NCBI GenBank assembly: GCA_003220225.1
Contig: QHRU01000059.1
Coordinates: forward strand, 1 to 64,000
DNA from: Candidatus Rokuibacteriota bacterium
GTDB lineage: Bacteria; Methylomirabilota; Methylomirabilia; Rokubacteriales; CSP1-6
Length of the DNA: 64,000 nucleotides
Reading direction: 5' to 3'
Shown here: positions 6,840 through 16,574 of the stretch, one piece after another
How the letters are laid out: every line of letters starts with the position of its first letter
Position numbering within the stretch: the stretch's first letter is position 1
The notes under the pieces: model-generated
Seen by the model: the letters and a program-made list of their open reading frames with translations, nothing else
The model's database searches: none
What the model was told of the DNA's origin: nothing
Translations under genes and position numbers: made by a program

Positions 6840-7784
6840 ATGTCGCTTGACGTGAGACGGACTGAGATCGAGGAAGAACTCAAGCGGGCGCTTCCTGCCT
6901 TTGGCGACATGACTCAATTCCGTCCGCTGATCAAAGGACATGGTCATCAATCTTTCATTCTTGAGACGAGCTCGAAAATCAACCTCTTGCTGAAGATCGC
7001 GTTGCGAAGTGAGCAGCTGGGCAAGATGAAGTCTCTGCGCCAGGTGTTGGAATTGGCTGCAAAACACCAGATCCCTGCGCCAAAGCTGCTCTACTTCTCC
7101 GAAGGAACAGCTTCCTTTGCGGGGCGTCCCTGGTTAATTCAAGAGTTCCTGACGGGGCAGGATGGCGAGGTCGCTATCGCGGGGATGTCTGAGCTCCAGA
7201 GAGCGACATTCTTTCGGGACTTTGGTCAAGCGGTAGCTCGGCTTCACTCGATCAACTCGGGTTATTTTTCCGAAGACCTGGCGTCTTCAAGACGAGAGGA
7301 GACCTGGACTTCGGTAGTCGAATCGCGGCTTGAACGTCTGAAGAACAATCATCTGCAAGCAGAGTTGCTGTCTCCCCAAAGCATTGAGTCAGCTGAAGGG
7401 GCGATCCTCTCGATCGTACGAGCGGTTTCTCGTGAGGTACGTCCTTCTCTGGTGCATCGCGATCTCTATCTTCCAAACACTCTCGTTGCTGCTGGGCGTT
7501 TTCGGTGTCTCCTTGATTTCGAACATGCGCGTTCCTGGGACGCACTATCCGACTTCGTCAAACTCAAGATGTGGGTTTTTGACAGCGTCCCCGGTTCCGA
7601 ATCGGAGTTTTGCTCGGGATATGGCTCGAATCCGTTGATGACGAACGAAGGCCGGATGCGCTTCCACGTGGGGCTCGGGTTAGAGCTTCTTTCCGGGTTG
7701 GTTTACTGGAAGACGACGGGACAATCAGCGATGCTCACGGATTACCAGAGACGGTTCAAGCATTGGCAATCCATTCCTTCATGA
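6840..7784 (+). CDS. Aminoglycoside/choline-kinase-like phosphotransferase (APH family)
   Basis: A 314-residue protein kinase-like phosphotransferase. The Brenner motif is LVHRDLYLPNTLV near residue 200, followed by the metal-binding LLDFEHARSWD near 225; an N-lobe Lys lies in LLLKIALRSE. It should transfer ATP phosphate to a small molecule such as an aminoglycoside, choline or a sugar. Base composition is about 50% G+C, far below its neighbours, with A/T-ending codons, which indicates recent transfer. It stands alone and overlaps the 3' end of the convergent gene at 7756 by 29 bases. Whether it confers antibiotic resistance cannot be judged from sequence. Confidence 0.82.
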   Translation: MSLDVRRTEIEEELKRALPAFGDMTQFRPLIKGHGHQSFILETSSKINLLLKIALRSEQLGKMKSLRQVLELAAKHQIPAPKLLYFSEGTASFAGRPWLIQEFLTGQDGEVAIAGMSELQRATFFRDFGQAVARLHSINSGYFSEDLASSRREETWTSVVESRLERLKNNHLQAELLSPQSIESAEGAILSIVRAVSREVRPSLVHRDLYLPNTLVAAGRFRCLLDFEHARSWDALSDFVKLKMWVFDSVPGSESEFCSGYGSNPLMTNEGRMRFHVGLGLELLSGLVYWKTTGQSAMLTDYQRRFKHWQSIPS

Positions 7785-9285
7785 AGCGGGCGTAGCACTC
7801 GCGCTCGCCCGGCATCTTCGGCCAGCCCGCGAGCAGCCGCACCGTGGCGATCAGCAGGCGATCCCGCAGGTGGGTGGAGTTGTGGCCGTATTCCTCGAGG
7901 CTGGAATGGGTGATCTTCTGGTTGTGCGGGTCGTCCTGGAACTTGCACGCCGTGACGGCGACCGACGCCTGGTACGCGTTGCGATCCGCGCCCGATTTCA
8001 GATAGGCGCTGGCCAGCGCGGTGGCGCGCGGGATGTCGTAGGCGAGAATGGCCTCGTCCAGCTCGTCCAGCAGCGCGGACGGTGTCCGTCCCGAGGCGTC
8101 GAATCCGGCGCACTCGCGCTCGAGCACCGGTGTCACCAGCTTGTTGGAGCGGGCCGCGTCGTTCACGAAGTTGGCCATGAGGTACAGCACGCGCGGCCGG
8201 TAGGGGCTCTCGCTCGTGCGCAGCCAGTCGTTCGCCGTGTTGCAGTAGTCGAACGGATGTTGACCGTCCGTGAACTGCTTGGGCACCGTCGTCCTTAGAA
8301 TCAGCTCGGCGGCGCCGATCTGGATGGTGTCGCCCAGGCTTCGGATCGACCGGCCGTTGCGTAGATGCGTGGTGAGCAGGGCCCAGATGGTCGGCCCGTC
8401 CGCCTCCATGAGCAGCCGGACCATCTCCTCGACCTCGCCCGGAGTGAGCGGCGTGTGATTCGTCTGCGCGAGATTCTTTCCGGCGTCGGGCAGCTCGCTG
8501 GCGACCGTCACGCAGGCCGCGTCGTAGAGTGAGTAGTAGAGCGGGCCGACGGCCATGTCGGGGACGCCGATGTAATAGACGCCGTGGGACCGGTCCCACC
8601 CGATGAACTCGGCGAGGTCGGTCACGGCACGCGCCCGCAGCGCCTTGTGACCCGTGTTGCGCGCCTTCCGCCCGATGATCGTGTCTTGCACGTCGATCAG
8701 GCCCAGGAAGATCAGGTGATCGCGCAGCCGCGGGCGGACGCGCGCGTCGGCGGCCAGACCCAGGAAGAGGCCGTAGGCTCGCCGCACGTCGCCGCTCATC
8801 GTCGCGATCATGTGCGCGTGCAGCCGCTCCTCGACGGTGCCCTCTTCCGTGATCGGCGCCTGCTCCTGGTGCCACACGACCGGACCGTAGCTCGGCGGCG
8901 GCACGTTCATGCCTTTCATCGTGGCGTAGCGGCCGGGATACTTGCCGAGCAGCTGGTTCCAGATGTCGAGCCCGGCCGGGATGTACCAGACACCCTGCAA
9001 GAGCGGCAGCAGCCGATAGCGCTCGGGCAGGAACGGCGCCAGATTCAGGGCGGCCCGGAGGCCGAGAATCGTGTGGTCGTTGTTGATCAGCGTGATCTGG
9101 CCGTCGCGCACGTTGATGTGGCTCGGCACCTGCACGAACGGCGCCTCGGCCCTCGTCACCACGTCGAGGGCGTCGCTCAGCGCGCGGCCCTCCCGCGTCA
9201 CCATCTGATGGAAGAGATCAGTCGTGCGCGGTTGATCGCGCTCCAGAATGGCTTCCGTCAACAGGGCGAAGGATCTGTCGGCCAT
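7756..9285 (-). CDS. Conserved hypothetical protein, His-rich helical (paralogue of 15117-16574)
   Basis: I do not recognise the family. This is a 509-residue soluble, mostly helical protein with no signal peptide. It is rich in His, Tyr and Trp: NNDHTILGLRAALNLAPFLP (about 78-97), GPVVWHQEQAPITEEGTVEERLHAHMIA, LRDHLIFLGLIDVQD, and a late ACKFQDDPHNQKITHSSLEEYGHNS block near 465. It aligns in order, though weakly, with the gene at 15117, especially the C-terminal block and the AL-(Y)-GW segment. ATG 9285 has a GAGGAG site. It is last in an operon with LLM monooxygenase, hydrolase and VOC genes, so an oxidative catabolic role is possible. Confidence 0.8.
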   Translation of the reverse strand: MADRSFALLTEAILERDQPRTTDLFHQMVTREGRALSDALDVVTRAEAPFVQVPSHINVRDGQITLINNDHTILGLRAALNLAPFLPERYRLLPLLQGVWYIPAGLDIWNQLLGKYPGRYATMKGMNVPPPSYGPVVWHQEQAPITEEGTVEERLHAHMIATMSGDVRRAYGLFLGLAADARVRPRLRDHLIFLGLIDVQDTIIGRKARNTGHKALRARAVTDLAEFIGWDRSHGVYYIGVPDMAVGPLYYSLYDAACVTVASELPDAGKNLAQTNHTPLTPGEVEEMVRLLMEADGPTIWALLTTHLRNGRSIRSLGDTIQIGAAELILRTTVPKQFTDGQHPFDYCNTANDWLRTSESPYRPRVLYLMANFVNDAARSNKLVTPVLERECAGFDASGRTPSALLDELDEAILAYDIPRATALASAYLKSGADRNAYQASVAVTACKFQDDPHNQKITHSSLEEYGHNSTHLRDRLLIATVRLLAGWPKMPGERECYARFMKEWIANA

Positions 9286-9340
9286 CGCGCTCTCCTCGGG
9301 TCCGGTCTGGGCTCGTACTATACCGCGCGGCCCGCGTCGA

Positions 9341-9856
9341 TCAGACGTTGGTGAGCGCCGGCGTCGCCTGGCGCAGGGCCTCGTCCCAGGGCCCCGGGAA
9401 CCGTCCCTTCGCGCCGCCTCCGGAGAACGGCCGCTCCTGGTGCCACTGGCTGCGCGGCAGCTCGTAGTAGACCTCGAGCCCATTGCCGTCGGGATCCGAG
9501 AAGTAGACGCCGATGGAAACCGTGTGGTCGGCGACGCGAACGGCCACACCCTGGTCGTTCAGGCGCCGATAGATCTCCGCGAGGTCGTCGAGGCTCGCCA
9601 TCCGCCAGGCCACGTGGTTCAGACCCACCTGGGTCTTCTGCGGCCCGGCGGCGTCGTCTCCAACCTCGAAGAGGGCGATGTCGTGCGCGTGGCCGGGGTC
9701 ACACGCAAGGAAGGCCGCGCGCAGCCGCTCGGTGCCGGAATGATTGAACGTATCCTGGGTGTGGAGGCCGAGGACCTCCGTATACCATCGGTGCGACCGC
9801 TCGGCGTTGCGCACGAAGATGTTGACGTGGTCCAGGGACATCGGCTTATAGCTCAT
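9341..9856 (-). CDS. VOC family protein (glyoxalase/extradiol dioxygenase superfamily)
   Basis: A 171-residue vicinal-oxygen-chelate protein. It starts MSYKPMSLDHVNIFVRN with a metal-ligand-type His, then GLHTQDTF, and VGLNHVAWRMASLDDLAEIYRRL begins the second module. The closing IGVYFSDPDGNGLEVYYELP carries the usual C-terminal Glu ligand. Such proteins bind a divalent metal and do isomerisation, ring cleavage or conjugation. It lies 16 bases downstream of the alpha/beta hydrolase gene in an operon with an LLM monooxygenase. A ring-cleavage dioxygenase followed by a C-C hydrolase would fit, but the substrate is unknown. Confidence 0.9.
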   Translation of the reverse strand: MSYKPMSLDHVNIFVRNAERSHRWYTEVLGLHTQDTFNHSGTERLRAAFLACDPGHAHDIALFEVGDDAAGPQKTQVGLNHVAWRMASLDDLAEIYRRLNDQGVAVRVADHTVSIGVYFSDPDGNGLEVYYELPRSQWHQERPFSGGGAKGRFPGPWDEALRQATPALTNV

Positions 9857-9872
9857 CTCTCCCTCTCCTTGC

Positions 9873-10670
9873 CTACGGGTGGATCACCGTCGGCGTACGG
9901 CTGATGACGAACGCCTCGTGACGGTCGAGGAAATCGGCCACCACATCGGCGAACGCCTCGGGCCGATCGGTGCTGATCGCGTGCGCGGCGTCGTAGACGA
10001 ACACGAGGTGGCAGTTGGGCATCGTCTCCTTGTAGATGCGCCCCATGGCGGGCGCGATGACGCGGTCCAGGGTGCCGAACAGCACGAGCGTCGGCGTGGC
10101 CAGCCCGGACAGACGGCCCTCGAGGTCCGCGTCACGGTCCGGACCTCTCAGACGCTGCACCAGTGGCTGTGTCTTGGCCCGTGTGGCCGCGTCCGGCAGC
10201 AGGATTGCGCCGAGCCGTTCGGGGTGCGCGTACAGGCGGAGCGCGATCTCTTCGGGAGATCCGGCCGGCGACGCGGCGCCTTCCTGACGGATCGCTGCGG
10301 GGGCTTCCAGCACGAGGGCGCGCACCCGCTCCGGCGCCTGCAGCGCGAGCCACAGCGCCGTCTTGCCTCCGAACGAGGTGCCCATGAGGTTGAAGGTGTC
10401 GAGCCCGAGGTTGCCGATCGCCTGGGCCATCGTCGAGGCCAGCTCGGGCATGCTGGTCGTCCGGAGGTTCTCGGGCGACTGACCGAACCCAGGCATCTCG
10501 AAGAGCACCACCCGGAAGTGGCGGGACAGCAGGTCGTGCGCCGGCGTGAGGCGCGGCCCGCCCGCGCCGTGCAGATGCACCAACGGCGCACCGTCGCCAG
10601 CCTCCAGGTAGCGGATCCGGAAGCCGTCCGCCTCGACGTAGCCGTCGCTGAACAATCCCGGTGCCCTCAC
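9873..10670 (-). CDS. Alpha/beta hydrolase
   Basis: A 265-residue alpha/beta hydrolase. LHGAGG forms the oxyanion region near residue 33, the nucleophile elbow is GTSFGG near 98-103, an acid lies in LFGTLDRV, and the catalytic His is in VYDAAHAIS near 230. Its GTG start (10670) overlaps the TGA of the upstream LLM gene as GTGA, implying translational coupling. The resemblance to meta-cleavage-product hydrolases, together with a VOC gene just downstream, suggests C-C bond hydrolysis after ring opening. Ester or epoxide hydrolysis cannot be excluded. Confidence 0.92.
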   Translation of the reverse strand: MRAPGLFSDGYVEADGFRIRYLEAGDGAPLVHLHGAGGPRLTPAHDLLSRHFRVVLFEMPGFGQSPENLRTTSMPELASTMAQAIGNLGLDTFNLMGTSFGGKTALWLALQAPERVRALVLEAPAAIRQEGAASPAGSPEEIALRLYAHPERLGAILLPDAATRAKTQPLVQRLRGPDRDADLEGRLSGLATPTLVLFGTLDRVIAPAMGRIYKETMPNCHLVFVYDAAHAISTDRPEAFADVVADFLDRHEAFVISRTPTVIHP

Positions 10671-11743
10671 ATGCCGCGAATGCGCGGCAGCACCTTCTTG
10701 CCGAACAGCTCGAGCGATCGCATCAGGGGCTCCAGCTCAGCGGACCCCGGCGGGTGCAGAGACAGATCGATGACGCCGGCGCCGACCACGTCGCGACAGC
10801 GCCTGACCTGCTCGACGATGGTATCCGGGCTGCCGACGAACGTCGTGGGCAGCGCGCCGCTCACGATCGGCGCCCGCGCCTCGCCGGCGATGTTGCGAGC
10901 ATCCAGCTTCATGAACGCGTCGCGGACGCCTGCCCGCATGGCGAACGGCGCCTGGTTCGGCTGCGCGCGCAGCGTCGCGTGCGCCTCGTCGTCGGTCTCG
11001 GCCAGGACCATGTTCGCGCGATAGACGATCTGCTCGGGCGCCGGCTCCCAGCCGTAGCGCGCGCACTGCTCGCGGTAATACCGCGTGGCCTTCGCCATGA
11101 CCTCGAACGGTCCGTAAGAGACGCCGTAGCCGAGGTGGTGGCGCGCGGCGAACTCGCCGGCTTCGCGACTCGTTCCCAGCGCATAGGTGGGTGGATGTGG
11201 CTGCTGCAACGGGCGTGGCCAGATGGAGACGGTGCGGTACTGGAAGTGACGCCCCTGCCAGCCGAAGGGCTGCGGCTCCGTCCACGCCTTGAGGATCAGC
11301 TCCATTCCTTCGTCGGTCCGCTCCCGCGCCTCCGCCGGGTTGAGGTCGTAGGTGAGGTACTCGTTCGTCGTCCCGCGCAGGAGGCCGACGACCAGGCGGC
11401 CCTGGGCGAGGGTGTCGAGCATCGCCAGCTCCTCGGCCACGCGCACCGGATTGCTCTGGGGAACGATGGGGCCGAGCAGGGCGATGGTGATCTTCTTCAG
11501 CCGCGCGGCGATGAACGCGGCCGAGAGCATCGGGGCCGGGGACAGGATCCGGGGCGAGTAGTGATGCTCGGACACGCTCACCCAGTCGAAGCCCAACTCC
11601 TCGACGTACTCGAGCCGCTCGATCATGCCGCGGTACGCCTCGGCGCCGGCGTCACGGTCGTACGCCCCGGAGGGCACCGGCCACTCGGAGGGCAGGGCCT
11701 GAGGGGCCCGATAGCGCACGGTTTCGAAGAACGAGACCTTCAT
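10667..11743 (-). CDS. LLM class flavin-dependent oxidoreductase (luciferase-like monooxygenase)
   Basis: A 358-residue bacterial-luciferase-fold protein starting MKVSFFETVRYR. The TIM-barrel motifs are present: FDWVSVSEHHYSP near residue 50, LGPIVPQSNPVRVAEELAMLDTLAQGRLVVGLLRG near 90-125, and PPTYALGTSREAGEFAARHHLGYG. Such enzymes use FMNH2 or F420H2 to oxygenate small organics. A much longer in-frame extension exists upstream, but ATG 11743 matches the family N-terminus. It is first in a minus-strand operon with hydrolase, VOC and hypothetical genes. No flavin reductase gene is adjacent. Confidence 0.92.
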   Translation of the reverse strand: MKVSFFETVRYRAPQALPSEWPVPSGAYDRDAGAEAYRGMIERLEYVEELGFDWVSVSEHHYSPRILSPAPMLSAAFIAARLKKITIALLGPIVPQSNPVRVAEELAMLDTLAQGRLVVGLLRGTTNEYLTYDLNPAEARERTDEGMELILKAWTEPQPFGWQGRHFQYRTVSIWPRPLQQPHPPTYALGTSREAGEFAARHHLGYGVSYGPFEVMAKATRYYREQCARYGWEPAPEQIVYRANMVLAETDDEAHATLRAQPNQAPFAMRAGVRDAFMKLDARNIAGEARAPIVSGALPTTFVGSPDTIVEQVRRCRDVVGAGVIDLSLHPPGSAELEPLMRSLELFGKKVLPRIRGM

Positions 11744-11860
11744 GGCGCCGCTCGGAGCATGGCGCCGGACGTTACCACGAACAGGTGAGACAGGCCACGC
11801 CGCGCGACCGCGTAGTAAGCTCCCGGTCGACGGACATCGCGCCACACGGGAGGATCGAGT

Positions 11861-12823
11861 ATGAAGGCCTACTTCCTCACCCCCGGTCCCGGCGGGACCG
11901 GGGTCGAGCTTCGCGAGACCGCCACGCCCGAGCCCAAGCCCGGCGAGCTTCTCGTGCGGGTCCGGGCCACGTCGTTGAACCGCGGCGAGCTGCTGGGCGG
12001 CAAGCCCGGCGCGCCGGCCAGAGCCGGTGGCGGCGAATGCGCGGGGGACGTGGTCAAGCTCGGCGACGGCGTCACCGCCGTGTCGACGGGCGACCGTGTG
12101 ATGGGACGCTGCGCTGGCGGCTTCGCCGAGTACGCGCTGATGGACGCGCGCGAGGCGATGCGGGTGCCCGGCCCGCTCGCGTGGGAAGAGGCGGCGGCCA
12201 CGCCGCTGGTCTTCGTCGTCGTCTACGACATGCTGGTTGCCCAGGGCCAGCTCGCGGCCGGGCAGTGGCTGCTCGTGACGGGCGTGTCGTCGGGGGTCGG
12301 CGTCGCCGCCCTGCAGACCGGCAAGGTGCTGGGCGCGCGGGTCATCGGCACCTCCGGCTCTGCCGACAAGCTCGCCCGGCTGGAGAAGCTCGGCCTCGAC
12401 GTCGGCATCCGCACGCGGGCCGCGGATTTCCACGACGCCGTGCTGAAGGCCACCGACGGCAAGGGCGTGAGCCTCGTGGTCAACAACGTCGGCGGCTCCG
12501 TCTTCGCCGAGTGCATCAAGAGCCTGGCCTTCGAGGGGCGGCTGGCGACGGTGGGACACATGGATCGCGTGCTGAGCGCCCCTCTGGATCTCGAAGCCCT
12601 GCACAGCAAGCGCCTCACGGTCTTCGGCGTGAGCAACCGGCTCCGCACGGCAGCGCAGCGCGCGGCGACGGTGCGCGGCTTCGTCAAGGACGTCCTGCCT
12701 TACTTCGAGGACGGTCGGCTGCGGCCGCTGGTCGACAGGATCTTCGGCTTCGACGACCTGCCGTCGGCCATCAAGTTCATGGAGTCCGACGCTCAGGTCG
12801 GCAAGATCGTGGTGCGTTTGTAG
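11861..12823 (+). CDS. Zinc-binding-dehydrogenase-superfamily oxidoreductase (quinone oxidoreductase-like)
   Basis: A 320-residue medium-chain dehydrogenase/reductase. The N-terminal GroES-like domain has no obvious catalytic zinc Cys/His set, as in zeta-crystallin/quinone oxidoreductases. The Rossmann domain carries VTGVSSGVGVAALQTGKVLGARVIGT near residues 143-168. It probably reduces quinones or enones with NADPH. ATG 11861 follows GGGAGGATCGAGT. The last nine codons and stop lie inside a 65-base unit that is repeated 105 bases downstream (see the repeat at 12796-12965). Its end overlaps the convergent Mug reading frame by 31 bases. Confidence 0.92.
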   Translation: MKAYFLTPGPGGTGVELRETATPEPKPGELLVRVRATSLNRGELLGGKPGAPARAGGGECAGDVVKLGDGVTAVSTGDRVMGRCAGGFAEYALMDAREAMRVPGPLAWEEAAATPLVFVVVYDMLVAQGQLAAGQWLLVTGVSSGVGVAALQTGKVLGARVIGTSGSADKLARLEKLGLDVGIRTRAADFHDAVLKATDGKGVSLVVNNVGGSVFAECIKSLAFEGRLATVGHMDRVLSAPLDLEALHSKRLTVFGVSNRLRTAAQRAATVRGFVKDVLPYFEDGRLRPLVDRIFGFDDLPSAIKFMESDAQVGKIVVRL

Positions 12824-13467
12824 AGGAGCGGCCCGGCATTGCCGGGCTGCGACGAACGTTGGGGGGTGTGGGGGGCCATGTCGGGGCCCCCCACGCGGTC
12901 GGTCGGCAAGATCGTGGTGCGTTTGTAGAGGAGCGGCCCGGCTTTGCCGGGCTGCGACGAACGTTCCGTCCATCGCCTGAGGCGTCGGTACCACACGAGC
13001 TTGTCCCCGAAGCCCGGATAGGCGGCGTTGCGGCCGCTGGGGTTGGGCACCACGAAGACGGTGGCACCGCCGATGCGCTCTGGCTTGCGCCCCGGCCCGG
13101 CGCTCGCGGACGGACCGAAGAACTGTCGGTACGCCGTGCTCCCGACAAACGCCACCACGGCCGGCTCGATGCCCGCGATCGTGCGGGCCAGCCGTTTGCG
13201 ACCGCGCGCATAGTCGGCCGCCGTCAGCTCGGAGGCCTCGCGCGTCGCGCGCTCCGCGATGTTGGTCAGCGCGAGCCCGAACTCCGGAAGGCGAACGTCG
13301 TCCGCAAACGTCAGCGGCTCGGACACGAAGCCCGCGGCGTGGAGCAGGCGATAGAAGGGATTACCGGGCCCCGCGAAGTGATGACCGACACGGGCCGACG
13401 TCAGGCTCGGGTTGATGCCGACGAAGAGGATGCGCGGCTTCGGGCACAGGCGCGCCGGCAAGCGCAC
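12793..13467 (-). CDS. mug: Mismatch-specific uracil/thymine-DNA glycosylase (Mug family)
   Basis: A 224-residue family-2 uracil-DNA glycosylase. Motif 1 is LFVGINPSLTSARVGHHFAG near residues 14-33 and motif 2 is VPNPSGRNAAYPG near 139-151. It removes U or T opposite G (and ethenocytosine) in base-excision repair. GTG 13467 begins one base after the stop of the upstream gene. Family members are usually about 165-180 residues. Here residues after about 170 are translated from the antisense of the 12796-12965 repeat, giving two copies of a 21-residue stretch starting RSSQPG. The functional protein probably ends near residue 170, and the extension is a by-product of the repeat. Confidence 0.88.
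   Translation of the reverse strand: MRLPARLCPKPRILFVGINPSLTSARVGHHFAGPGNPFYRLLHAAGFVSEPLTFADDVRLPEFGLALTNIAERATREASELTAADYARGRKRLARTIAGIEPAVVAFVGSTAYRQFFGPSASAGPGRKPERIGGATVFVVPNPSGRNAAYPGFGDKLVWYRRLRRWTERSSQPGKAGPLLYKRTTILPTDRVGGPDMAPHTPQRSSQPGNAGPLLYKRTTILPT
12796..12965. repeat. Tandem 65-bp repeat: gene 3' tail plus hairpin of family A element
   Basis: 12796-12860 and 12901-12965 are identical except for one base. Each unit holds the last nine codons and TAG of the gene at 11861, then a 7-bp GCCCGGC/GCCGGGC hairpin and a shared CGACGAACGTT. Between the copies lies the second family-A hairpin, GGGGGGCC-N7-GGCCCCCC. The first hairpin probably also ends transcription. The duplicated gene tail shows that the unit was copied after the element was already in place. 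Confidence 0.9.
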
Positions 13468-13468
13468 G

Positions 13469-14650
13469 CTAGAACAGCGGGCTGTTCGACTCGAGGCCGA
13501 GCATCGTGCGCCCCACCGCCTCGTAGTTCACGAACTGCAGCTGGTTGTGCCGGGTGACGACCTCGGCGTCGCGCGCGTAGCGCTCGAGCGGGCTGCTGTT
13601 GAAGATGGACGTGGTGCCGGCCGTCGCGCAGACCATGTGCGTGGCCTGGGCTGCGCTCTGAGCGGCGTGGGTCATGGCCATGCGGAGATCCGAGCGCTGT
13701 CGCTCCGTGACGAACTCGCCCGCTACCACCGTCTGCCACATCGCCTGCACGGTGTCGAACAACAAGGCCCGGCCGGAGCGCAGCAGCGCCTCGGCTTCGC
13801 CGATTCTCGCCTGCACCAGCGGCCGGTCGCGCAGCAGCTCCGACGACGAGCGCGGCACCTTCACCTGGGCGAGCTCGACGAACTCGTCGACGGCGGCGCG
13901 GGCCACGCCGAGCCCGACGCAGCAGAAGCCGCAGCCGGCGAGATCGAAGCCGTGCATCCGGTTCATCGGCCCGGTGACGCGCGCGCGCCGATCGAGCGCC
14001 GAGAACGTATGCTCCTCGGGCACGAACAGGTCCTCGACCTCGATGTCGTGGCTGCCCGTCCCCCGCATCCCGCTGACGTTCCAGGTGTCGATGATGCGCA
14101 CCTGCGATTTCGGATGGAAGTAGGCGATGCGCACATCCTGATCGCCGTTGGGCCGCCGCCGGGGCACATCACCGTCGAAGACCTTGCAGGCGCCGTGGAG
14201 CAGGAACGAATGCATGCAGCCGCTGGCGAAGAACCAGTGCCCGGTGACGCGGTAGCCGCCCGGCACGGCGACGGCCCGGCCGCGCGGGTTCGCCGAGCCT
14301 GCCGAGACGCCGATCGGATCGCTGTGGAAGAGCGTGCGGCGGACCTCCGGCGCGAATTGAGCGCTCTGGCGGAAGCTGTTGATGCCCATGGCCAGGCACC
14401 AGCCCGTCGAGCCGTCGGCCCGGGCCACTTCCTCGATCACGCGCAGGGTCGTGAGGATGTCGGCGCCCAGGCCGCCCTCGGCCTCGGAGATCGCGACCTT
14501 GAACAGCTTCGCGTTGGCGATCTCGAGCACGAGATCGCGCGGCAGCTGCCGCGCGGCCTCGATCTCGTCGGCCCGCTCGCGGATGCGCGGCGCCAGCGCG
14601 CGGGCGACATCGAGCGGGCTGGTCGCCGCGCGGGCGGAGTCGGTGATCAT
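13469..14650 (-). CDS. Acyl-CoA-dehydrogenase-fold flavin monooxygenase (HsaA/DszC-like)
   Basis: A 393-residue protein with the acyl-CoA dehydrogenase fold. It contains FKVAISEAEGGLGAD and ADGSTGWCLAMG near residues 50-85, GYRVTGHWFFASGC near 130-144, TWNVSGMRGTGSHDIEVEDLFVPEEHTF near 190-216, and a C-terminal ATAGTTSIFNSSPLERYARDAEVVTRH. The absence of the catalytic Glu region and the GTGSHD motif fit group-D two-component monooxygenases, which hydroxylate aromatics with reduced flavin. Acyl-CoA dehydrogenation is the alternative. It sits 10 bases downstream of a CMD-family gene and one base before mug. Confidence 0.85.
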   Translation of the reverse strand: MITDSARAATSPLDVARALAPRIRERADEIEAARQLPRDLVLEIANAKLFKVAISEAEGGLGADILTTLRVIEEVARADGSTGWCLAMGINSFRQSAQFAPEVRRTLFHSDPIGVSAGSANPRGRAVAVPGGYRVTGHWFFASGCMHSFLLHGACKVFDGDVPRRRPNGDQDVRIAYFHPKSQVRIIDTWNVSGMRGTGSHDIEVEDLFVPEEHTFSALDRRARVTGPMNRMHGFDLAGCGFCCVGLGVARAAVDEFVELAQVKVPRSSSELLRDRPLVQARIGEAEALLRSGRALLFDTVQAMWQTVVAGEFVTERQRSDLRMAMTHAAQSAAQATHMVCATAGTTSIFNSSPLERYARDAEVVTRHNQLQFVNYEAVGRTMLGLESNSPLF

Positions 14651-14660
14651 GCGGTCCGGG

Positions 14661-15002
14661 TCAGCTCCGCTTGAACGCGCCCTCGACCTCGAGCTGCATG
14701 ATGCTTTTCACGCCGGCGCTGAGGGTCGGCCCGCCGCCCGGCACCGCCGCCGCCTGGATCGCCTCCAGCAGCTCGCGCTTCGTGGCGCCGTGCTCGACGG
14801 CCCGGCGCATGTGGGCGACGACGCCGTCCTCTCGCCCGCGAAACGCCAGGATCCCGATGATGACCATCTCGCGGTGCTTGATCGACAGCTCCTTGCCTTC
14901 GCCGACCGACAGCTCGCTCACCGGCTGTCGCGCGGCGGCGTACTGCGGGTCTTCGCGCGCCAGCCAGTCCGCCCACGGGTACCCATACGGGCTCTTGCTC
15001 AT
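14661..15002 (-). CDS. Carboxymuconolactone-decarboxylase (CMD) family protein lacking CxxC
   Basis: A 113-residue all-helical CMD/AhpD-fold protein. The central LSIKHREMVIIGILAFRGREDGVVAHMRRAVEHGATKRELLEAI stretch matches the family, but the AhpD CxxC is absent: the equivalent place reads FRGREDG. It therefore cannot be a thiol peroxidase. A decarboxylase, hydrolase or ligand-binding role remains. ATG 15002 is preceded by GAGGAGG. Gene order hypothetical, CMD, monooxygenase, mug suggests one minus-strand transcript, interrupted by a family-A hairpin element before this gene. Confidence 0.82.
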   Translation of the reverse strand: MSKSPYGYPWADWLAREDPQYAAARQPVSELSVGEGKELSIKHREMVIIGILAFRGREDGVVAHMRRAVEHGATKRELLEAIQAAAVPGGGPTLSAGVKSIMQLEVEGAFKRS

Positions 15003-15042
15003 CTCTGCCTCCTCACGCCAAACACATCACCTCGGCCCCCTT

Positions 15043-15113
15043 AGAGGAGCGGGCCGGCTTGGCCGGGCCGCTCCGAAGGCCCGGGGGGAGTGGGGGCCAT
15101 TTCGGGGCCCCCA
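15043..15113. repeat. Family A double-hairpin intergenic element
   Basis: It begins TAGAGGAGCGGG and contains a 13-bp stem with one mismatch (GGAGCGGGCCGGC / GGCCGGGCCGCTCC), then a G-run and GGGGGCC-N7-GGCCCCC. It lies between the stop of the gene at 15117 and the start of the CMD gene at 15002, where it could end or attenuate transcription. Confidence 0.8.
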
Positions 15114-15116
15114 CGT

Positions 15117-16574
15117 TCAAAAGCCCATGACCTCGGCGGCGTGCTCGTAGACGTCCTGGATGCGTCCGTGCGAGATGGCCGCCGCCTGCACCGCGGCCAC
15201 CAGGTGGCGCCAGCGCAGCGACGGCCGCGTGGCGTGGAACTCCTCGTAGGTCGCCTGGTGATGCTTGAGCGCGTGCATCTCGGTGAAGTTGTCGCGGCAC
15301 GCGATCCTGCCGAGCAGGGCGATCAGCGCCTCGGGCGCGTAACCGGCGTTGGCATACTGCTGGGCCAGCGCGGCGGCCTGCTTGACCTCGTCGGTCGAGC
15401 GCCACGTCGCGAGGTTCGCCTTCGGCAGCCGCTCGCCCACCGGCAGGCGCGCGATGAGCGCCTCGATGTCGGCCAACAACTCGTCCTGCGTGCGGGGCGG
15501 CAGCGCCGCCACGCGCTCGGGCTCGGGCTGCAGGTCCGGGGCCAGCATGCGCTGGGCCATGAGCACTTCCGGCCCCGTGTTCCACACCAGCAGCGCGCGC
15601 AGCTTCGTGCGCAGGGACAGCTCCGGCTGCCGCAGCAGATAGCGCCGCGTGTTGGCGCCGGTGTTGATGTGCACGTCCATCGGGTTGCCGGTCTGCGAGC
15701 GCAGGAAGAGCGTCGAGCCTCCCACGGAGAGCCCCTCGCCGGCGCCTTCCAGGGACACGCCGTCGGCGAGCGCGCGCGCCAGCATCCCGGGAACCTCGCT
15801 GAACTTGTGGCAGCGGCCGATCTCGTCGGCGAGCGCGGTGAGGGCGGCCGTCTCGTCGTCGCCGGTCGCGACGCGGAGGTCGCGCTCGAGCAGTCCGAAC
15901 GTCGCGATCAGCGCGTCCACGTCGTCCAGCGACGCCGGCATGGTCGGACGCGTCACGTAGCGCACGGGCGCCCGGCCGATGTACTGCGCGTACTCCCAGC
16001 CGAGATATTCGAGCGCCCGCCACGTGAAGACGGGGAACAGGAAGTAGTGGTCGTCGAGCTGGTTCTTCGGAATGGCGACGTGGAGCAGGTGCTCGAGGAC
16101 CTGCATGGGCGAGAGCCGCTGCAGCAGGTAGAGATAGTAGTGATCGCACGCGTGGTAGACGCCGCGGCTCGCCGCCATCCGGAACGACTCGAGCGTGGCC
16201 TCCACGCTGTCCTGCTCCGACACCGGCTGCGCGTCAGGCAGGATGAACGGGCCCATGGCCGGCGAGTGGATGTGCTTGTTCGCCACGGCCACGTTCTGGA
16301 TCACGGGCAGCCGCGCGTACTCTCCGGGCAGCCTGGCGGCGATGTGCCGCACGGCGTGCAGCCCCGCCAGCGGGTGGAGCGGGCCGCCGTGATGCCCCGG
16401 CGGCAGATCCGAAGAGCGCACCACGGCCAGGGCGGAGGCGAGCAGCACGTCCTTGACCGGGGTGCCGGCGGCGAGCCGGTCGTGGGTGCGGGCGACGATG
16501 TGCTCGGGCGGCGTCTCCTCGACGAAGCGCACGAGCGGCTCGATGGACTCGGGATACGCGACGGGTCGGGCCAT
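15117..16574 (-). CDS. Conserved hypothetical protein, His-rich helical (paralogue of 7756-9285)
   Basis: An unrecognised 485-residue soluble protein. Its notable histidines are in PPGHHGGPLHPLAGLHAVRH (residues about 58-77), NKHIHSPAMGPF, YHACDHYYLYLLQRLSP, LLHVAIPKNQLDDHYFLFPVF and a C-terminal CRDNFTEMHALKHHQATYEEFHA near 430-452. The last block matches the C-terminal Cys/His/Glu block of the 509-residue protein at 7756, and the order of the other blocks is also shared. The clustered His, Asp and Glu suggest a metal site. ATG 16574 is near the window-typical codon usage start. It heads the minus-strand group with CMD, monooxygenase and mug. Confidence 0.82.
   Translation of the reverse strand: MARPVAYPESIEPLVRFVEETPPEHIVARTHDRLAAGTPVKDVLLASALAVVRSSDLPPGHHGGPLHPLAGLHAVRHIAARLPGEYARLPVIQNVAVANKHIHSPAMGPFILPDAQPVSEQDSVEATLESFRMAASRGVYHACDHYYLYLLQRLSPMQVLEHLLHVAIPKNQLDDHYFLFPVFTWRALEYLGWEYAQYIGRAPVRYVTRPTMPASLDDVDALIATFGLLERDLRVATGDDETAALTALADEIGRCHKFSEVPGMLARALADGVSLEGAGEGLSVGGSTLFLRSQTGNPMDVHINTGANTRRYLLRQPELSLRTKLRALLVWNTGPEVLMAQRMLAPDLQPEPERVAALPPRTQDELLADIEALIARLPVGERLPKANLATWRSTDEVKQAAALAQQYANAGYAPEALIALLGRIACRDNFTEMHALKHHQATYEEFHATRPSLRWRHLVAAVQAAAISHGRIQDVYEHAAEVMGF

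Follow-up and report, generated by a model that had tools for sequence, protein, structure and literature searches.

Two distantly related genes in a Candidatus Rokuibacteriota contig

The window analysed here is a stretch of 64,000 nucleotides, positions 1 to 64,000 of contig QHRU01000059.1 from a Candidatus Rokuibacteriota bacterium (GenBank assembly GCA_003220225.1), and the subject is a pair of genes in it, P0002 (7756..9285) and P0003 (15117..16574). Both lie on the minus strand, start with ATG and encode proteins of 509 and 485 residues, respectively. GAGGAG stands 5' of the open reading frame of P0002 and GGAGGA 5' of that of P0003, both resembling ribosome-binding sites, and orthologue searches return close, intact orthologues of the two proteins in other genomes. 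The two reading frames named by an earlier prediction from the DNA letters (the original prediction) are real. P0002 is the K-type member of its family and P0003 is a member with a motif like that of the questin oxidase BTG13; for each, we have a translation, orthologues, a model and a fold match.

P0002 and P0003 are distant homologues. BLASTP aligns them over nearly their full length (441 columns, 22% identity, E 9e-5), and comparison of the two families with hhalign gives a probability of 97.6% (E 3.1e-12, 432 columns), which agrees with the earlier description of paralogues with little identity. The histidine richness claimed for both applies to P0003 (4.7% His) and less so to P0002 (3.1%). 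The C-terminal block common to both proteins, described as rich in Cys, Arg/Lys, His and Glu, does have conserved His, Lys and Glu, but its Cys is present in only 8 of the 15 rows of alignment A1, which carries the P0003 motif columns; the shared Cys is ruled out as a ligand because it is not conserved. Neither protein matches any curated Pfam or NCBIfam family.

Predicted fold

AlphaFold2 models were built from alignments of 27 rows for P0002 and 15 rows for P0003. The P0002 model has a mean predicted local distance difference test (pLDDT) score of 83.9 and a predicted template modelling (pTM) score of 0.89; the corresponding values for P0003 are 73.2 and 0.78. Both models are predominantly helical, as had been predicted. 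In the VIA-align comparison of P0002, rows 1 to 6 are BTG13 of Cercospora sp. (7y3w/x/y), AflY (8yxs) and the hydroquinone dioxygenase PaD (8z4q/r), with Z from 15.3, for BTG13, to 12.7 and root-mean-square deviation (RMSD) of 4.4 to 4.6 over 335 to 340 residues. Row 7 has Z 6.6. The same three enzymes lead for P0003 (BTG13 Z 12.9, AflY 11.9, PaD 11.3), with about 300 residues aligned in each case, and its questin-oxidase rows, from Z 12.9 to 11.1, are interleaved with partial matches to the C-terminal domain of RarA/MgsA; the next row has Z 7.4. Structure prediction had been proposed as a check on the kinship of the pair, and the two folds agree through the same PDB entries. P0002 and P0003 appear, from these models, to share the questin-oxidase fold. 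Identity to BTG13 in the structural alignments is 9 to 11%, with no significant sequence match.

A putative metal site

The iron of BTG13 is presumably held by four histidines and the carboxylated K377. This kind of site, with four His and a carboxylated Lys, is a rare way to hold a catalytic iron, and three enzymes that have it are represented among the PDB rows listed. In the tool alignments, the BTG13 motif positions are H58, H158, H296-x-x-T299 and H374-x-x-K377. In the same order, P0003 has H67, H176, H302-x-x-T305 and H434-x-x-K437, and P0002 has H71, H213, H343-x-x-D346 and H454-x-x-K457. Both proteins share the four ordered histidines and the H-x-x-K with BTG13, and P0003 shares the H-x-x-T as well, whereas in P0002 the residue at the T299 position is Asp.

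All the corresponding codons lie on the minus strand. In P0002, His71 (9073..9075) is proposed ligand 1 at the H58 position of BTG13 and His213 (8647..8649) is proposed ligand 2 at the H158 position; H343-x-x-D346 (8248..8259) would supply ligand 3 and its neighbour at the position of H296-x-x-T299, and H454-x-x-K457 (7915..7926) would supply ligand 4 and a Lys at the K377 position. In P0003, proposed ligand 1 is His67 (16374..16376), which is invariant in A1 and aligned with H71 of P0002, and proposed ligand 2, placed by the alignments, is His176 (16047..16049). H302-x-x-T305 (15660..15671) would supply ligand 3 and the residue at the T299 position, and H434-x-x-K437 (15264..15275) ligand 4 and the Lys at the K377 position.

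Conservation of these residues was followed in A3, a 51-row family alignment that includes two Rieske-fused rows. The four motif histidines, H71 among them, are invariant in all 49 non-Rieske rows, and H213 is invariant in 51/51. Counts at H56 and H71 use the 49 rows because histidines of the Rieske domain are misaligned there in the two Rieske rows. Among the 13 invariant columns of the 49 rows, five are His, at a background of 16 His per 509 residues (hypergeometric 1.7e-5). H56 of P0002 was considered as a ligand and set aside: although the residue is invariant in A3, the position that pairs with it changes when another alignment is used. In the models, H71 and H67 immediately precede a helix, H213/H176 and H454/H434 are at or near the start of one, and the Lys follows about one turn on.

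Positions 346 and 457 (P0002 numbering) vary together, with the pairs D+K in 20/20 rows, E+E in 22/22, T+K in 7/7 and T+Q in 2/2; this co-variation is no statistical proof because no more than about three changes between subfamilies underlie it. The PDB entries include the BTG13 mutants H58F and T299V, so these positions interested the depositors. The four His and the Lys of P0002 and P0003 are putative ligands, matching in sequence the order of a known iron site. The dense His and carboxylates noted in the original prediction as suggesting a metal-dependent oxygenase or hydrolase do correspond to this site, and of the two activities it is the oxygenase that is favoured.

The order of the motif recurs in bacterial PF14027 (Questin_oxidase) proteins, for example from Rhizobium plasmids, as NH, H, H-x-x-T and DxH-x-x-(K/S). 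In alignment A4 (12 bacterial PF14027 rows), H30, H122 and H235-x-x-T238 are present in 12/12, and H312 is followed by K in 3/12 and by S in 9/12. The Thr of this H-x-x-T is found in all these rows and in P0003 (T305), and P0002 has D346 instead. Lys at the K377 position is no strict criterion, because only 3 of the 12 rows have it. These bacterial proteins differ from P0002 and P0003 in length (about 350 against 485 to 510 residues). On the Rhizobium plasmids (L190 to L198), several bacterial questin oxidase family genes adjoin amidohydrolase genes.

Proposed function and alternatives

The computed results (the homology of the pair, the predicted fold, and the conservation and order of the motif), taken with analogy to the known enzymes, lead us to think it fairly likely that P0002 and P0003 belong to the questin-oxidase structural superfamily as remote bacterial members, namely all-helical mononuclear non-heme iron oxygenases that cleave C-C bonds or rings and are served by flavin monooxygenases. 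They probably use oxygen and would represent a kind of enzyme so far undescribed in these bacteria. The original prediction called the family unrecognised. It is indeed absent from the Pfam and NCBIfam families, but the fold and the order of the motif indicate the questin-oxidase superfamily, so that some assignment can be made. The proposal gives an unannotated bacterial family a function hypothesis, one that we regard as well founded and not as a result. Because its members naturally have Lys, Glu and, in the Rieske-fused branch, Gln at the K377 position, such a family would also allow a direct test of what the carboxylated Lys does.

In the proposed mechanism, four histidines from four segments (H71, H213, H343 and H454, or H67, H176, H302 and H434) would hold Fe(II), and K457 or K437, one turn past the last His, would sit at the position of the carboxylated K377 of BTG13. 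The flavin monooxygenase encoded alongside would hydroxylate the substrate first. P0002 or P0003 would then accept an electron-rich substrate resembling a hydroquinone or phenol, activate O2 and catalyse iron- and O2-dependent cleavage of a C-C bond, as the fungal ring-cleaving dioxygenases do, and the product would be processed by the alpha/beta hydrolase (by hydrolysis) or by the VOC or carboxymuconolactone-decarboxylase (CMD) protein. The iron, the Lys carboxylation, the use of O2, the cleavage, the substrate class and the pathway order are all suggested by analogy, the last of these with the fungal ring-cleaving dioxygenases. According to a review (PMC9890505), the fungal relatives are dioxygenases that cleave the ring of a hydroquinone made by a partner reductase. 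The gene context of P0002 and P0003 is bacterial and looks catabolic, unlike that of BTG13.

Several observations weigh against this assignment. Helical models may reach Z of about 13 in VIA-align by a common arrangement, so the fold match of P0003 is weak when taken alone, and residues 58 to 109 of the P0003 model, which include H67, have pLDDT below 50. With Foldseek alone, neither protein has a match at E 0.001; for P0002, 8yxs ranks 14th (probability 0.96, E 0.12, TM score 0.34), and the 50 rows listed for P0003 include no questin oxidase. The Pfam PF14027 model matches 0/51 members of A3 at E 0.1, while the positive controls L167, L194 and L199 do match. Profile-profile comparison with bacterial questin oxidases is weak (E 0.012 to 0.05, probability at most 3.5%), and the hits from A1 and from the set without the Rieske rows lack collinearity and miss the C-terminal region that is aligned from A3. 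The partial matches of P0003 to the RarA/MgsA C-terminal domain, over 107 to 138 residues, reach Z of about 12.

By sequence alone, kinship to Pfam Questin_oxidase is weak and not significant. The best local match between A3 and A4 spans 25 columns and places DDPHNQKI on DDHVIKM (E 0.023, probability 2.1%); its score of 26.2 was not reached by 60 column shuffles (mean 16.1, maximum 25.9), and the same C-terminal region is also matched from alignment A2 and from the Rieske-fused set. A PF14027 scan of 60 relatives returned nothing, but its control was silent too, and a scan of four genomes returned nothing. PDB profile searches with A1, A2 and A3 found nothing, as did hhalign against the single protein L167. 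AflY and PaD, which share a DDGHxxK motif, are found by profiles of the bacterial PF14027 proteins and not by those of the P0002/P0003 family. Because the sequence link is weak, we do not file the family under PF14027; what we propose is that it has the fold and the site in common with questin oxidases. The case for it stands because two separate models agree on the same three enzymes and because of the motif evidence.

The same fold and metal site could instead belong to a hydrolase, decarboxylase or isomerase that depends on Zn, Mn or Fe. Carboxylated lysines are mostly known from hydrolases, and hydrolases, amidohydrolases and CMD proteins are among the neighbours; however, every solved structure among the full-length top rows is annotated as an oxidase or dioxygenase, and the window's partner genes encode flavin monooxygenases, so that we hold this to be distinctly unlikely. 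A shade less credible still is that the fold match arises from a widespread arrangement of helices and that the proteins are non-enzymatic or of an unrelated family. The profiles do give no significant link to questin oxidases and the RarA C-terminal matches of P0003 do reach Z 12, but two separate models lead to the same three PDB enzymes, with about 300 residues aligned, Z drops from 12.7 to 6.6 for P0002 after these enzymes, and the order of the motif agrees. We give least credence to a metal-free superfamily in which the histidines are structural or act as bases, as in an earlier proposal that GedK is a dioxygenase without a cofactor. GedK is called cofactor-free in PMC9890505, whereas four histidines in matching order would be unusual for a structural role.

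The resemblance to RarA/MgsA is of interest in itself. P0002 residues 395-509 (window 7756-8103), which include H454 and K457, resemble the RarA/MgsA C-terminal domain. The last 115 or so residues of the family score 27.2 (local) against that domain in hhalign, compared with a mean of 12.3 and a maximum of 18.2 in 100 shuffles and 11.9 for the reversed profile, and the P0002 model superimposes on 8g28 with RMSD of 2.5 over 104 residues. Pfam MgsA_C matches 3/51 members at E 0.1, weakly (best 1.9e-4), and the shuffle comparison supports the resemblance for the C-terminal part only. In P0003, the structural RarA match falls on another stretch (residues 121 to 348), so a structural repeat is possible. 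An internal RarA-like duplication was rejected at the level of sequence, since repeat 1 against repeat 2 and repeat 1 against RarA give nothing. Unlike RarA/MgsA, the P0002/P0003 family has no AAA+ ATPase domain, and RarA is not known to have a metal site.

Gene neighbourhood

The genes that precede P0002 encode, in order, a luciferase-like monooxygenase (LLM; 10667..11743, minus strand, ATG start at 11743, Pfam PF00296), an alpha/beta hydrolase (9873..10670, minus strand) whose PDB relatives include meta-cleavage (C-C) hydrolases, and a VOC (glyoxalase-fold) protein (9341..9856, minus strand, Pfam PF00903, E 3.5e-18). P0003 is followed by genes for a CMD family protein (14661..15002, minus strand, Pfam PF02627, E 8.6e-13) and for an acyl-CoA-dehydrogenase-fold flavin monooxygenase (FMO; 13469..14650, minus strand) identified by Pfam, with PDB relatives including Rv3094c, HsaA and the C2 component of p-hydroxyphenylacetate hydroxylase (HPAH). 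A zinc-type oxidoreductase gene on the plus strand (11861-12823) separates the P0002 set from the P0003 set. These neighbours are as originally described. One base after the FMO gene lies a uracil-DNA-glycosylase superfamily gene (12793-13467, minus strand), an odd companion in a catabolic operon.

At loci L069 and L061, in two other genomes, a homologue of the FMO (94% and 86% to that at 13469-14650) is directly upstream of a P0002 orthologue, which ties the FMO to both paralogues. In an alphaproteobacterium (L084), homologues of the hydrolase and the LLM (68 to 69%) flank a P0002 orthologue on the opposite strand. A conserved operon was rejected because neighbours vary widely among loci; they include TauD, Gfo/Idh/MocA, FMN dehydrogenase, amidohydrolase, VOC and hydrolase genes. 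Three P0003 orthologues from two other genera (L172, L173 and L174) adjoin members of one gene cluster, a ThuA-like and Gfo/Idh/MocA fusion in L172, and have an upstream gene from another cluster, TauD by Pfam in L172.

The co-occurrence with LLM enzymes suggested earlier does not hold as a general association, and the claimed link is mostly genome background. The genome itself (6.03 Mb) has 82 LLM (PF00296) matches, ten of them on the window's 117 kb contig, and LLM co-occurrence was rejected as functional evidence for that reason. An LLM lies within 6 kb at 8/45 loci of the P0002 type (p 0.49 against the own-genome rate), 5/35 of the third-copy type (p 0.72) and 7/14 of the P0003 type (p 0.004), p-values that are only indicative because the rate of one genome is applied to many genomes.

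Family types and distribution

The window's genome holds three full-length types of the family: the K type (P0002), the E type (a third copy) and the P0003 type. The third copy, on another contig (C114, locus L002), is more distant, with 39% identity to P0002, and its type has E346 and E457 in 22/22 rows. Counting this genome, relatives of P0002 occur in 30/195 genomes and those of P0003 in 17/195; a profile of all types, with the two Rieske-fused rows included, finds relatives in 38/195.

A scan of genome contigs gave 269 pattern matches, of which 249 are relatives. Among the best 80 of these 249, the hosts are Rokubacteria, Acetobacteraceae, Reyranella and other Alphaproteobacteria, Entotheonella and Dehalococcoidia; a protein 100% identical to P0002 occurs in a contig labelled Acidobacteria bacterium isolate AA35, and the nearest relatives are mostly from Candidatus Rokuibacteriota. 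Outside Rokubacteria the P0003 type is rare, being found in 1/299 Pseudomonadota genomes, the Acidisphaera genome used as the centre of the sample. Acidisphaera sp. S103 has genes of both the P0002 type (L071) and the P0003 type (L236). Nothing was gained from searches of viral contigs, or of plasmids with P0002 and P0003. Pfam and NCBIfam hits among the 51 family members are to Rieske-type families (the two fused rows), together with weak matches, chiefly to MgsA_C.

Rieske-fused relatives

Some relatives (L057, L165, L166 and L231 to L235) carry an N-terminal Rieske [2Fe-2S] domain followed by the same helical domain. Their hosts belong to several families, also beyond the window's class. 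P0002 and P0003 themselves have no Rieske domain in Pfam, and it is present in only 2/51 rows of A3, the fused ones. A comparison of seven of the proteins, from six genomes (L165, L166 and L231 to L235, with L057 outside the set), relates their C-terminal domain to the P0002 family (hhalign probability 99.4%, E 3.6e-20) and to the P0003 family (93.6%, E 3.3e-8). Pfam finds no ring-hydroxylating catalytic domain in the fused relatives, and a literature search returned no paper combining Rieske with questin oxidase.

The motif is incomplete in this branch. The first His is missing in 7/7, while the second is present in 6/7, the third in 4/7 and the fourth in 6/7; Gln replaces Lys in 6/7, and L235 is without all four His. 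These losses mean that the site is degraded or rebuilt, and a catalytic iron in the branch is uncertain.

A broader scheme, speculative and on balance doubtful, would unite all these proteins in a single superfamily of helical iron oxygenases, in which the carboxylatable Lys that serves as fifth ligand has given way to Glu, Ser or Gln, with an accompanying exchange (Thr, Asp or Glu) three positions past the third His, and a branch widespread in bacteria has gained a Rieske [2Fe-2S] domain of its own. If the scheme is true, the Rieske-fused branch would represent a new Rieske oxygenase architecture, with a catalytic domain of the questin-oxidase type and not the usual alpha-subunit domain of ring-hydroxylating enzymes.

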